From Salinivibrio sharmensis (GTDB taxonomy: Bacteria > Pseudomonadota > Gammaproteobacteria > Enterobacterales > Vibrionaceae), in the NCBI RefSeq assembly GCF_001995985.1, contig NZ_MUFC01000005.1, positions 1 to 64,000 on the forward strand: a DNA stretch of 64,000 bases. The letters run 5' to 3'. This document shows, one piece after another, positions 1,355-46,064 of this stretch. The translations under genes and the position numbers were made by a program. Position 1 is the first letter of the stretch. Each line of letters starts with the position of its first letter. The notes beneath the pieces are model-generated. The model did no database searches. It was not told the origin of the DNA and saw only the letters and a program-made list of their open reading frames with translations.

Positions 1355-4167
<2,813 letters not shown>

Positions 4168-32056: not shown

Positions 32057-33349
32057 TTATGCCGACTTTTGCGGACGACGACGTTGGCGGTTGCGGTTAT
32101 TTCCGCCACCTTTGTTATTGTTACTGCGGCGCTGCGTATTAGGGCGCTTTGCCATTTTCTTTGGCGGTGGCAAATCTTTTAGCAGTGCACTGCGGTCGAA
32201 CTCGCTAACCGGGATGCTGTGTTCGATGTACTCTTCAATCGCGGGCAGGTTTACCGCATACTCTTCACAGGCAAAGCTGATGGAGCTGCCACTGGCACCC
32301 GCGCGTCCAGTACGGCCAATACGGTGCACATAGTCTTGCGCGTCGTCTGGCAGATCGTAGTTAAACACGTGAGTCACTTGCGGAATATGCAAGCCACGCG
32401 CGGCGACATCGGTTGCGACCAATAGATCGAGCTCGCCATTAGTGAATTGCTCGAGGATTTTAACCCGTTTTTTCTGGGGAACGTCGCCGGTGAGCAAGCC
32501 CACACGATGGTTATCAGCCGCTAAATGGGCCCAAATTGATTCGCAGCGATGCTTAGTGTTGGCAAAAATAATCGCGCGCTCAGGCCAATCTTCTTCAATC
32601 AAGGTTTGTAACAGCGGCATCTTTTCTTTGTTTGATGGCTGGAACAACTCTTCTTTGATGCGATGACCGGTAATTTGTTCGGGCTCGACCACCACATGTT
32701 CTGGGTTGGTCATATGCTCAAAAGCCAGCTCTTGTACGCGATACGACAAGGTCGCCGAAAATAGCATGTTCAAGCGCTGATCGGGGGCGGGCATGCGGTT
32801 AAACAAAAAGCGAATGTCTTTGATAAAACCGAGATCAAACATGCGATCCGCTTCATCGAGCACCACAGCTTGAATGCCGTGTAAATCAATCACTTTCTTT
32901 TTGTAAAAGTCGATAATACGGCCACAGGTACCGATTAAAATATCGACACCCTGTTCTAGCGTCTGTTGCTGTTGGTCGTAGCCTTCGCCACCATACGCGA
33001 GCCCTGCGCTGATCGATGTATTCGCTAAAAGCGGCTCAGCATCATTATAGATCTGAATCGCTAATTCACGCGTAGGAGCTAATATAATGGCACGCGGCTG
33101 ATTTTTTTTACGCGATGCAGGCGCATCGGTCGTCAGGAGGTGATGAAACGTCGCAGCCAGGAACGCCAGGGTTTTGCCTGTCCCCGTTTGCGCCTGTCCT
33201 GCAATGTCTTGGCCGGTGAGCAGGACCGGCAATGCCAGGGCTTGGATAGGGGTACATTGAGTAAACCCTTTGGCCTCCAAGCTCTTGAGAACATCGGCGT
33301 GCAAGCCGAGCTCGGCAAATTTCTGCTCTGTGATATGCGTCATTTTCAT
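32057..33349 (-). CDS. rhlB: ATP-dependent RNA helicase RhlB
   Basis: A 430-residue DEAD-box helicase, the RNA-unwinding subunit of the RNase E degradosome. Q motif FTQCTPIQ, Walker A AQTGTGKT (residues 53-60), [24 protein letters not shown], and [10 protein letters not shown] are all present, then a basic low-complexity tail rich in Asn, Arg and Lys. The first of two nearby ATGs is used because it aligns with the E. coli start. It is 30 bases upstream of gppA, probably one transcript, and divergent from trxA, the classical rhlB-trxA-rho arrangement. Confidence 0.97.
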
Positions 33350-33461
33350 CCGGATAGAATATCAGCTTAGGCTTGCAATACGGAAGCGAATCCAGTCAAA
33401 TAGTCCCATAATTTACTGGTCGCAATTTAGCCAGTAACAAAAACATGTATTGGAGTAGAAG

Positions 33462-33788
33462 ATGAGCGACAAAATTATGCAGCTAACCGACGACAGCTTT
33501 GAGGCAGACGTTCTAAAAGCTGCAGGGCCTGTATTGGTGGATTTTTGGGCAGAATGGTGTGGGCCATGTAAAATGATCGCGCCTATCCTGGACGAAATCG
33601 CTGAAGAATACGCAGGTAAAGTCACCATCGGAAAACTGAACATTGACCAGAACGCAGGTACACCGCCTAAGTTCGGCATCCGTGGTATCCCAACACTGCT
33701 GCTGTTTAAAGATGGCAGCGTGGCAGCAACCAAGGTTGGTGCTGTGTCAAAAACTCAGCTGAAAGAGTTTCTTGACGCCAACCTATAA
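33462..33788 (+). CDS. trxA: Thioredoxin 1
   Basis: A 108-residue cytoplasmic thiol-disulfide carrier. The active site WCGPC (Cys33 and Cys36) follows VDFWAEW, Asp27 and the cis-Pro loop [11 protein letters not shown] are present, and the length matches E. coli TrxA. TTGCAA at 33373-33378 and TCAAAT at 33396-33401, 17 bases apart, are a tentative promoter. A terminator follows, then rho. Confidence 0.98.
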
Positions 33789-33797
33789 TGCTAAAGT

Positions 33798-33830
33798 AAC
33801 CGTCGCTGCCTCTCAGCGGCGGTTGTTTTT
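33798..33830 (+). terminator. Rho-independent terminator after trxA
   Basis: AACCGTCGCTG-CCTCT-CAGCGGCGGTT forms an 11-pair hairpin with one mismatch-like wobble, followed by TGTTTTT. Confidence 0.85.
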
Positions 33831-33840
33831 CTGCCAACTA

Positions 33841-33971
33841 GACGATACCCCATTTAGGTGCTACCTTATTGCACGGAATTTGTACTTCTGTTCATCTCTC
33901 GAACATACCACTGGTCTCGACACGCTAACTAATTTCAGACCTCAACTTTGACAAACAAGACACTCACCACT
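33841..33971 (+). promoter_or_regulatory. C-rich, G-poor rho leader
   Basis: The 131 bases before rho are pyrimidine-rich and low in G, particularly 33881-33971, and look unstructured. In E. coli the rho leader is a site of Rho-dependent autoregulation, and this composition is that of a rut site. TTGCAC at 33869-33874 with TCATCT 17 bases on is only a weak promoter candidate. No leader peptide could be supported. Confidence 0.35.
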
Positions 33972-35237
33972 ATGAATCTTACCGAACTGAAGACTCAACC
34001 CGTCTCGACGCTGGTTGCGCTTGGCGAAAGCATGGGACTTGAAAACCTGGCTCGCTTGCGTAAACAGGACATCATTTTTTCGATCCTCAAACAGCACGCA
34101 AAAAGCGGTGAAGATATTTTCGGCAATGGCGTACTGGAAATTCTTCAAGACGGGTTTGGCTTCTTGCGCAGCGCAGACAGCTCGTATTTGGCCGGCCCTG
34201 ATGACATTTATGTATCGCCAAGCCAAATTCGTCGCTTTAACCTGCGCACAGGCGATACCATCGCGGGTAAAATTCGGCCGCCAAAAGATGGCGAGCGTTA
34301 CTTTGCGCTATTAAAAGTCAACCAAGTGAACAGCGATAAGCCGGACAACGCGCGCAGCAAAATCCTGTTTGAAAACTTGACCCCACTGCATGCCAGCGAG
34401 CGTATGGTGATGGAGCGTGGCAACGGCTCCACGGAAGACATCACAGCACGTGTGCTGGATTTGGCTTCGCCGATTGGTAAAGGCCAGCGCGGCTTGATTG
34501 TGGCACCGCCAAAAGCGGGTAAAACCATGTTGCTGCAAAACATTGCGCAAAGCATCGCGTTTAACCACCCAGACTGTGAATTGATGGTGCTGTTGATTGA
34601 CGAGCGTCCGGAAGAAGTGACCGAGATGCAGCGCTTGGTACAAGGCGAAGTGGTTGCCTCAACCTTTGACGAGCCCGCGAACCGCCACGTGCAAGTCGCC
34701 GAAATGGTGATTGAAAAAGCCAAGCGTTTGGTGGAGCACAAAAAAGACGTGGTTATCTTGCTGGACTCGATCACCCGTCTGGCGCGTGCTTACAACACAG
34801 TTGTGCCATCATCAGGCAAAGTATTGACCGGTGGTGTTGACGCCAATGCCTTGCACCGTCCGAAGCGTTTCTTTGGTGCGGCGCGTAATGTGGAAGAAGG
34901 CGGCAGCCTGACCATTATCGCCACTGCGCTGGTAGACACGGGCTCTAAGATGGACGAAGTCATCTACGAAGAGTTTAAAGGCACGGGTAATATGGAATTG
35001 CACCTGTCCCGTAAGATTGCTGAAAAACGTGTTTTCCCTGCTATTGACTTCACCCGCTCTGGTACCCGTCGTGAAGAGTTGCTGACCAAGCCCGATGAAC
35101 TACAAAAAATGTGGATCTTGCGCAAAATTGTGCATCCAATGGGCGAGCTGGAAGGCATGGAATTCTTGATTGGTAAATTGGCGATGTCCAAAACCAACAA
35201 CGAATTCTTTGATGCCATGCGTCGGCAAAACTCGTAA
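33972..35237 (+). CDS. rho: Transcription termination factor Rho
   Basis: A 421-residue hexameric RNA helicase. The N-terminal domain (MNLTELK... and the RNA-binding GFGFLRS) is followed by Walker A PPKAGKT, the Walker [11 protein letters not shown], the Q-loop and R-loop [25 protein letters not shown] (the bicyclomycin site lies in this region). Near identity to E. coli Rho runs along the whole length. Eight further in-frame codons lie upstream, but the ATG at 33972 matches the known start. No strong ribosome site is visible, in keeping with tight autoregulation. Confidence 0.98.
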
Positions 35238-42757: not shown

Positions 42758-43942
42758 GTGACTGAGTATGATGTAATTGTGATTGGCGCCGGTGCGGCAG
42801 GATTGATGTGTGCGGCACAAGCCGGCCAACGTGGCCGCCGCGTTTTGGTGGTAGACCATGCCAAAAAGCCGGGCCGCAAGATCCTGATCTCGGGCGGCGG
42901 ACGCTGCAATTTCACCAACTATGACGTCACCGCCAGTAACTTCCTGTGTGAAAACCCGCACTTCGTCAAATCCGCATTGGCGCAATACAGCCAATGGGAC
43001 TTTATTGGTCTGGTGGCCACCCATGGCGTGGCCTATCACGAGCGTGACCACGGCCAGCTATTTTGTGATGACAGCGCTAAAGATATCGTTAACCTGCTGT
43101 TGGCCGAATGCGACCAAGCCACCATCAGTCAACGCTATCGCTGTGAAGTGCATGATATCGTGCAAGAAGAAACCGGCTTTCGCCTTAAACTCAATGGTGA
43201 GCCGGTACGCTGCCAGTCGTTGGTGGTCGCCACAGGCGGCCTTTCGATGCCCAAGCTTGGCGCCACTCCCTTTGGTTACCAGCTTGCCGAGCAATTTGGC
43301 CTAAAAGTGCTGCCCACTCGCGCCGCCTTGGTGCCATATACATTGCACCAAGAGGACAAAACGCGCTTTGCCGATATTTCCGGGGTGTCGGTGCCATGTT
43401 CGATCACCACTGAGTCTGGGGTGTGCTTTACCGAGAATCTGCTCTTTACCCACCGCGGTTTATCGGGACCGGCGGTATTGCAAACCTCCTCGTTTTGGCA
43501 GCCGGGCGAAGCGGTCACCATCGATTTACTCCCTAGTGAGTCGCTAAAAGACGTGCTGGTGGCGATGCGTGATAAGCATCCCAACCAAACCTTAAAAACC
43601 TCACTGTCTCGCCTATTCCCCAAACGCTTGGTCGAGGTCTTGATTGCGCGCGATAGCTTGCCGGATAAACCGCTCAAGCAGCTCGATGACAAGCAGCTCG
43701 ATCAGCTTCATCACTATTTTCACCAGTGGTCTATTGCCCCAAACGGCACTGAAGGTTACCGCACCGCAGAAGTGACGCTTGGCGGGGTAGATACCCACGC
43801 GATTTCCTCGAAAACCCTGGAAACGCGCGATATCCCCGGCCTGTATTTTATCGGTGAAGTGCTTGATGTCACCGGCTGGCTCGGCGGCTATAACTTTCAA
43901 TGGGCCTGGAGCTCCGGCTGGGTCGCTGGGCAGCATGTGTGA
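42758..43942 (+). CDS. HI0933/YhiN-family flavoprotein (FAD-dependent oxidoreductase)
   Basis: A 394-residue flavoprotein. The dinucleotide fold begins at once (VIVIGAGAAGLMCA) and is followed by the family hallmark KKPGRKILISGGGRCNFTN, with GGLSMPKLGATPFGYQLA, GLSGPAVLQ and the C-terminal ATP-like FAD site LYFIGEVLDVTGWLGGYNFQWAWSSG. This family includes YhiN and BaiN; its physiological reaction is uncertain. GTG start at 42758 with ACAGG upstream. A hairpin at 43988-44033 follows. Confidence 0.9.
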   Translation: MTEYDVIVIGAGAAGLMCAAQAGQRGRRVLVVDHAKKPGRKILISGGGRCNFTNYDVTASNFLCENPHFVKSALAQYSQWDFIGLVATHGVAYHERDHGQLFCDDSAKDIVNLLLAECDQATISQRYRCEVHDIVQEETGFRLKLNGEPVRCQSLVVATGGLSMPKLGATPFGYQLAEQFGLKVLPTRAALVPYTLHQEDKTRFADISGVSVPCSITTESGVCFTENLLFTHRGLSGPAVLQTSSFWQPGEAVTIDLLPSESLKDVLVAMRDKHPNQTLKTSLSRLFPKRLVEVLIARDSLPDKPLKQLDDKQLDQLHHYFHQWSIAPNGTEGYRTAEVTLGGVDTHAISSKTLETRDIPGLYFIGEVLDVTGWLGGYNFQWAWSSGWVAGQHV

Positions 43943-43987
43943 CGTTAGTTCTAAATAATACCTACTTGACTGTTTTTTAACTTAAAA

Positions 43988-44158
43988 ATGGCAATCTTTC
44001 TTGCGCGCTGTTACATTAGCGCGCGCTTGCCATGTCGGATAAAAACTATCCGGCGCTGTGAACCCGCGATGCGCTGGATGGGCTCGCGGTACCCTAGGGA
44101 CGGGGTGACGGCTGTTCACTATTGCTACCTCGGTTATCCGGGGAGTTTGGAATTAACC
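43988..44158 (+). ncRNA. Structured, riboswitch-like leader of the chemoreceptor gene (unclassified)
   Basis: The 241-base gap before the chemoreceptor gene is full of exact pairings. ATGGCAA (43988-43994) and TTGCCAT (44027-44033) close a hairpin containing GCGCGC repeats. CGGATA-AAAAC-TATCCG occupies 44036-44052. GTGAAC (44058-44063) pairs with GTTCAC (44114-44119) around two inner stems, CCGCGA/TCGCGG (44064-44069 with 44084-44089) and ACCC/GGGT (44091-44094 with 44103-44106), a three-way junction. CCTCGG/CCGGGG (44128-44133 with 44138-44143) follows, and GGTTA (44132-44136) can pair instead with TAACC (44154-44158). No known class (GEMM core GGCAAACC, TPP, purine, cobalamin box) is recognised. 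Confidence 0.5.
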
Positions 44159-44183
44159 TGTCGTTGCTTTGAGAGCCGTTCCC

Positions 44184-46064
44184 ATGCAGTTATCACTAAA
44201 ACAAAAATTAATTGGGGCATGCTTATCTGCTGTATTGCTGATGGCCGCCTTTCTCACCTGGCTTGCTGTAAGTCAAATTCAAGCCCAAACCCAGTCGAGC
44301 ATCTATAGCCGCGTCAGTGGTATTGCCGATGCGGCGACCGAATCGATCAGCGGTTGGGTGCAAATCCGTGCTGATATCACCAGTGCCTTTACCGATTACA
44401 CCAGCAGTAGCCGCCGTGTGAGTTATTTGCAGCAAGCGCGTGAGGCCGGTGGGTTTGACGATATCTACTTTGGTACCCCAAAAGGTGCCATGTATCGCTC
44501 GCGCCCTGAGCGTAACCGCGATGACTATGACCCTCGCGTCCGTCCGTGGTACAAGCAAGCGGTGAGTGCAGGTAGCCCGATTATTACCACCGCTTACAGT
44601 GATGCGATTACCGGTGCGATGCTGGTGACCTTGGCCGAGCCGGTGCGTCGTAATGGCGAATTGATCGGTGTGGTGGGCGCAGATGTGTTGATTGACCAGC
44701 TGATCCGTGACGTGACCCAATTAAAAGTGGGCAAAAATGCGAACGCGATGCTGCTAGGCGCTGATGGCACTTTTCTCGCCCACAAAGACAAAGCGCGCTT
44801 GCTAAAGCCGTATCGCAGCCTGTCTCCTGAGCTGAATGAAAACCGCGTGCGTCAGGCGTTGGCACAGCAATCGCTGGTGGAATTGCCTGTCGATGGCGTT
44901 GATAAACTGTTTTATTTTGCCTCGGTTCCTAACACTGATTGGGTACTGGCCATTGAGCTGGATAAGCGCACCGAATACGCCAGCCAGCGTGATACCTTGT
45001 TCGACCTAATGCTAACCGCGGTGGTGATCACTTTGTTGGTGGCCGGTGCCGTGACGTGGTTGATGCACGTGTTGTTCCGTGACTTGCTCAATGTGTCCGC
45101 TGCGCTAGAAGAAATTGCCTCCGGTGAAGGGGACTTAACCCAGCGCCTTGAGCCACACAGCAATGATGAAATTGGCAAACTTGCCAACAACTTCAACCGC
45201 TTTGTCGGCAACATGCATGCCATGGTGTCGCATTTGCGCCAGCTGTCTGGCTCGCTCAAGCAACAAGCCGAGCTGACTGCGGCACAAGCCGAAGAGCGCT
45301 CTACCCGTATTGGTCATCAGCAAGATGAAATCAATATGGTGGCGACCGCTATCCATGAAATGGCCTCGGCGACCCAAGATATTGCCGGCAATGCCGATAA
45401 TACCGCGCGCACCGCCCAAGAGACCGAAAGCGTTGCCAATGATGGCGGCCAGCAAGTGGAGCAAAGTAAGGACTCGATCACCGAGCTTGCCCGTGAAGTG
45501 GAAGCGGCGACCGGTGTGATTGGTGAGCTCGACCAGCATGCGCATAGCATCACTAGCATCTTGTCGACCATTCAAGAAGTGGCCGAGCAAACTAATCTGC
45601 TGGCGTTGAATGCCGCGATTGAAGCAGCACGCGCCGGTGAGCATGGCCGTGGCTTTGCGGTGGTGGCTGATGAGGTACGGATTCTGAGTCAGCGCACCCA
45701 TGCCTCAACCACCGAAATTCAGCAGATGATTGATACCTTGCAGCAGGCAACTGGTCGCGCGGTGACCATGATGCAAGATAGCCAGCAGCGTGCTCATGCC
45801 AGTGTGGAAGATGCCAGCGCGGCGAACGAAAGCTTGAGCCAGATTGTTGCGGCGGTGAGCCAGATTAGCGATATGGCTACCCAAATTGCCTCGGCAGCGG
45901 AAGAGCAATCGAGCGTCACCGCGGAGATCACCCGTAACTCAGAGGGTATTCGCGATGTGTCCAATGAGCTATCGACCGAAGCGGATGAAGCCGCGCGTCA
46001 AGCCGCGACGTTATCCGAGCTTTCTCATAGCCTTGAGCAAGAGATCAGCCGCTTTAAGCTGTAG
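44184..46064 (+). CDS. Methyl-accepting chemotaxis protein with dCache sensor
   Basis: A 626-residue chemoreceptor: N-terminal helix (about 10-30), periplasmic dCache domain (about 35-275), second helix (about 280-303), HAMP, and a cytoplasmic coiled coil with the MCP hairpin tip [24 protein letters not shown]. In the sensor, YDPRVRPWY (residues 115-123) fits YxxxxRxWY of amino-acid-binding dCache domains, with AYSD and the VGADV aspartate as further expected ligands, so an amino acid is a reasonable ligand guess. No che gene is near. ATG at 44184 is preferred, with GAGAG upstream, over a TTG five codons earlier. Confidence 0.93.

Follow-up and report, generated by a model that had tools for sequence, protein, structure and literature searches.

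A conserved, structured leader confined to Salinivibrio, and probably a translational regulator of an amino-acid chemoreceptor gene

Introduction

Translational riboswitches of the c-di-GMP-II, SAM-II and preQ1 types act through a pseudoknot that covers the ribosome site, and the known aptamer classes are usually spread across genera and several genes. In leaders controlled by CsrA/RsmA, GGA motifs lie in hairpin loops, with one of them placed over the Shine-Dalgarno sequence. The c-di-GMP-I riboswitch (GEMM, RF01051) is known in vibrios, and one copy is present in every Salinivibrio genome.

Here we describe the leader of a chemoreceptor gene within a 64,000-nucleotide stretch of Salinivibrio sharmensis DNA (the whole of which is referred to as the window). 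The leader is real, uncatalogued, conserved and restricted to the genus, and is probably a structured translational regulator; that it is a riboswitch is a possibility. A search of the literature found no report on the Salinivibrio chemoreceptor leader.

Results

The leader and the gene that it precedes

The leader (about 44026–44183) is located between an upstream gene ending at 43942, which we take to encode an HI0933-type flavoprotein, and the ATG of a chemoreceptor gene at 44184 (26 bases beyond 44158, as an earlier note on this DNA had it). The receptor gene and its candidate promoter element are as follows.

44184–46064, + strand: chemoreceptor gene; Pfam dCache_1 sensor, HAMP and MCP signalling domains
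44010–44018, + strand: candidate extended −10 element TGnTACATT (the T of TG just before 44010), read from the sequence

The predicted receptor resembles PctA and the Vibrio amino-acid receptors, matching structures of the PctA/PctB and Mlp types; YxxxxRxWY is found at residue 115, and alignment to PctA locates the conserved Asp in GADVLID. YxxxxRxWY forms part of an amino-acid motif discussed in PMC10104139, where some of the motif residues are named. As the domain, the motif and the Asp are all found, the gene product is, judged by its sequence, a dCache_1 amino-acid chemoreceptor. It matches named Salinivibrio genomes at 96–100%. In the S. costicola draft (G006:C43 near 11800; L081) the receptor gene lacks a base, such that only residues 279–626 match in a single frame, reflecting either a sequencing error or a broken gene.

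In four of the eight genomes (G001, G002, G003 and G007) the flavoprotein gene is separated from the leader by an extra gene, inserted at 43938–43943, which leaves leader and receptor undisturbed and together; the leader–receptor unit is thus autonomous, probably with a promoter of its own. The inserted gene in G001 (L062, ~2017–3582) resembles an ABC transporter, with an ATPase and a permease. A strict scan found no + strand sigma-70 site; the candidate TGnTACATT is kept in 8/8 genomes amid variable flanks, and from it transcription would be expected to start near 44025. As part of the best explanation, to which we give about even weight, the leader would be the 5′ untranslated region, ~158 bases long, of a stand-alone chemoreceptor transcript. 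A strong hairpin upstream (43988–44031; z −3.7) was rejected as a part of this leader, since its GC arm is missing in G004 and G005 and it is located at or above the expected promoter.

Conservation within the genus

The leader is present in one copy per genome in 8/8 Salinivibrio genomes, which rules out an intergenic repeat, a possibility that the earlier note had wished to see checked. Only 7 of the 126 columns in 44058–44183 vary (5/62 in 44058–44119 and 2/64 in 44120–44183), compared with 25/68 just upstream (43943–44010) and about half of the fourfold sites in the gene body. The conserved block, from 44019 to about 44400, has a sharp left edge and runs into the receptor gene, where 2/34 fourfold sites vary over the first ~70 codons (44184–44400), against 20/44 and more later. 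In 150-base windows, the leader ranks near the top of the noncoding sequence of the 64 kb for conservation, and only 0.5% of coding windows reach its level. Comparable noncoding conservation is seen at 33326–33500 (between an rhlB-like helicase gene and a thioredoxin gene) and 33776–33975 (upstream of rho), these names being read from the open reading frames. For some genomes the distances computed from the leader and from the gene body disagree, indicating that recombination occurs.

Searches for relatives and for known RNA families

Rfam 15 (4227 models) gave no match to the leader, even at E ≤ 10, which rules out a known RNA family; the only match nearby, outside the leader, was a chance one to mir-921 (13.7 bits, against 80 needed). 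The earlier note's observation that the GEMM core is absent was borne out, in that RF01051 has no match in 43900–44250 at either the gathering score or E ≤ 10, whilst the same model finds its copy elsewhere in the genome (L118 222–324; G000:C2:37721–37823), ahead of a gene for a TfoX-like protein. A TPP riboswitch is also located in the window, at 1350–1449 (80 bits). ARAGORN found no tRNA or tRNA-like element, and a coding explanation was discarded because 2-base and 1-base indels and losses of start codons break the longer frames.

The leader was not found outside Salinivibrio, either in a DNA search of 61 relatives' genomes or with a covariance model run on 330 genomes of the family, 395 of the order and 369 of the class, the latter two sets being samples; the filters in these large searches are strict, and strongly diverged relatives may have escaped them. 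It was also not found in one pattern scan of viral contigs. Photobacterium and Aliivibrio have relatives of the receptor that lack this leader; the sequences in front of them are A+T-rich and unlike that of Salinivibrio.

Stems and folding of the leader

The predicted elements of the leader, from 5′ to 3′, are listed below.

44034–44054, + strand: hairpin H0, eight pairs, including CGGATA..TATCCG at 44036–44052
44058–44063, + strand: 5′ strand of P1, GTGAAC, pairing with 44114–44119; invariant in 8/8 genomes
44064–44089, + strand: hairpin P2, CCGCGA (44064) with TCGCGG (44084), directly abutting P1; stem invariant
44090–44107, + strand: hairpin P3, TACCCT...GGGGTG with loop AGGGAC, directly abutting P2; invariant
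44108–44113, + strand: 5′ strand of P4, ACGGCT, the unpaired junction strand J3/1, with no spare base between P3 and P1; exact complement of 44174–44179
44114–44119, + strand: 3′ strand of P1, GTTCAC, pairing with 44058–44063; invariant in 8/8 genomes
44124–44146, + strand: hairpin H4, including CCTCGG..CCGGGG at 44128–44143; formed in all predicted states (probability 0.99)
44174–44179, + strand: 3′ strand of P4, AGCCGT, four bases before the ATG, overlapping a weak Shine-Dalgarno sequence, GAGAG (44171–44175)

Every stem segment that the earlier note had named is present where it was placed, its ACCC (44091) / GGGT (44103–44106) pairing being contained within P3. When folded alone, 44032–44126 (95 bases) gives exactly the three-way junction that the note had drawn. 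All four variable positions of P2 (44070, 44073, 44075 and 44079) are in its loop, the H4 loop carries a one-base deletion (44138) in six genomes, and the H0 stem has a single substitution, G-C to G-U, which is the only such change in the leader stems. No double changes occur in P1–P3 among the eight genomes; the stems hardly vary, with 6–7 distinct sequences, so covariation in the junction stems has no power.

The folding energy of the leader is lower than that of shuffled sequences (z −2.5 for 44032–44126 and −2.2 for 44032–44183), and 120-base sliding windows across it are ordinary (z −0.15 to −1.4). An outer stem directly joined by an inner stem of 6 bp arises in 1.4% of shuffles, and the arrangement of P1, P2 and P4 in 0.01% (computed post hoc). 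By these models, the structure of the leader moderately exceeds chance.

When the whole leader is folded, a rival nested structure wins, in which 44097–44112 are paired with 44160–44183. In step-by-step folding the junction is the first to form and is displaced once 44160–44183 are added, with the probability of P1 being 0.75 at 44124, 0.73 at 44148 and 0.001 at 44184. The junction and nested states are ~3.5 kcal/mol apart, a calculated gap smaller than the uncertainty of the method if a pseudoknot is admitted. The competitor proposed in the earlier note, GGTTA (44132–44136) with TAACC (44154–44158), has an ensemble probability of ≤0.003, against 0.99 for the downstream hairpin, and was discarded; what stands of that reading is a conserved, structured, non-Rfam leader before a chemoreceptor gene, with alternative pairings near the ribosome site. 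Of the three findings that the note said would overturn it, an Rfam hit and an intergenic repeat did not turn up, and for the third, a lack of covariation, the stems offer no variation to judge by.

A predicted pairing of the junction strand with the ribosome site

The leader can form five Watson-Crick helices that are 6 bp or longer, one of them by ACGGCT (44108–44113) with AGCCGT (44174–44179), denoted P4. Its left strand coincides exactly with the six bases that the junction leaves unpaired, so that P1–P4 tile 44058–44119 completely, with open bases only inside the P2 and P3 hairpins. The ribosome site that P4 would cover is a weak one, the pairing of GAGAG with the anti-Shine-Dalgarno sequence being worth merely −2.7 kcal/mol.

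In S. costicola, A44108G and T44179C together convert an A-U pair of P4 to G-C, the sole double change in the leader; this genome has three private changes in 165 bases, two of which form the compensatory pair. Simulation with three random changes gives a chance of ~0.003 for such a paired change in a helix this long, a post hoc estimate; the change is a single event, seen in one draft genome, and the compensatory count of P4 is equalled in 88/500 column shuffles. In the same species the A44100–T44179 pair of the rival nested helix is lost. Overall, the eight substitutions in the leader break none of the pairs of the P1–P4 model (random mean 2.0; P 0.08). The competition that we predict is between the three-way junction and a pairing of the junction's right-hand strand with the ribosome site.

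Discussion

The reading that we prefer, at about an even chance of being right, is that the leader acts in cis to control translation of the chemoreceptor, with the strand 44096–44113 either retained by the junction or masking the ribosome site. Translational control is favoured because the junction has, in its right-hand strand, a segment able to conceal the ribosome site and because the energies of the two states lie within ~3.5 kcal/mol. During transcription, the three-way junction P1/P2/P3 would form first; once 44160–44183 have been made, the strand 44096–44113 could base-pair immediately ahead of the ATG in one of two ways: by adding helix P4 to the junction, giving a pseudoknot in which the two stems abut without a spare base, or in a long hairpin formed at the expense of P1 and P3. 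Either form would block ribosome entry, and the predicted default state is off. Whatever chooses between the junction and the blocking pairing, be it a small molecule, an RNA-binding protein (e.g. CsrA) or the speed of transcription or ribosome arrival, would set the amount of receptor.

A metabolite riboswitch of a new, genus-restricted class, which would be one specific form of the reading above, with the junction and P4 as the aptamer and an amino acid related to that of the receptor, or a second messenger, as the possible ligand, would account for the zero-base junctions, for a pseudoknot reaching the ribosome site and for the lack of an Rfam family, and the receptor is of the amino-acid dCache_1 type. 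We nonetheless consider it unlikely, since the leader occurs at one locus in one genus and shows far less variation than the c-di-GMP-I riboswitch does in these genomes; the full proposal, in which a Salinivibrio-only class with a pseudoknot between junction strand and ribosome site binds a small molecule and sets the level of the amino-acid chemoreceptor by intracellular conditions, is likewise unlikely. A riboswitch does not require rigidity of this kind, and its extension into the coding region suggests that selection acts on something besides an aptamer (a 5′-end small RNA, for instance) or that genetic exchange is at work, which tempers our confidence in the preferred reading. It is uncommon for a riboswitch to be conserved this strictly, with the constraint running through ~70 codons of the gene as well, and there is room for other readings. 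One of these gives the block from 44019 to about 44400 another role, as a small RNA derived from the message's 5′ end or as a tract kept uniform by recombination, making the fold incidental to translation. The near fixation of early synonymous sites, the sharp left edge and the discordant distances speak for it; against it, no terminator-like site was found on the + strand in 43600–44400, recombination alone is unlikely to leave identical tract boundaries in eight genomes, and the substitutions all avoid or keep predicted pairs. We regard it as improbable.

Control by CsrA/RsmA, which would couple receptor synthesis to a motility regulator, draws on GGA motifs in the loops of P2 (44076–44078) and P3 (44098–44100), 22 bases apart, and a single-stranded GGA at 44149; the P3 loop AGGGAC contains ANGGA, and the GGA of the P2 loop is invariant whilst four bases around it vary. 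The count of five GGA in 158 bases is, however, to be set against ~3 expected from composition (a rough estimate), no GGA overlaps the Shine-Dalgarno sequence, and conservation of the remaining leader would be left unexplained, making this quite unlikely as the main explanation. Leader-peptide control through the mini-ORF MSDKNYPAL (44032–44061), whose TGA stop codon lies inside P1, is highly improbable: the frame is open in 8/8 genomes, with one synonymous substitution and one P to S, but it is very short, lacks a Shine-Dalgarno sequence and a regulatory run of codons, and substitutions, together with the indel at 44138, interrupt the frames that follow.

If the cis-acting translational reading is correct, the chemoreceptor would be tuned twice, its protein sensing amino acids outside the cell and its message a condition inside it, and a structured regulatory RNA would have arisen in a single genus and been kept almost unchanged.

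Comparison with known systems

Like leaders under CsrA/RsmA control, the Salinivibrio leader presents GGA in hairpin loops (P2 and P3) upstream of a motility-related gene; it differs in having no GGA at the Shine-Dalgarno sequence and a number of GGA near expectation. With the c-di-GMP-II, SAM-II and preQ1 riboswitches it shares a structured 5′ leader, a helix from the core to the start codon region and mutually exclusive pairings (both predicted here), whereas it has no sequence or covariance match to them (E ≤ 10) and is known from a single gene in a single genus. A three-way junction is common to the leader and to c-di-GMP-I, the only catalogued riboswitch compared within the same genus; c-di-GMP-I varies at 34 of ~102 columns among these genomes, and the chemoreceptor leader is much more rigid.
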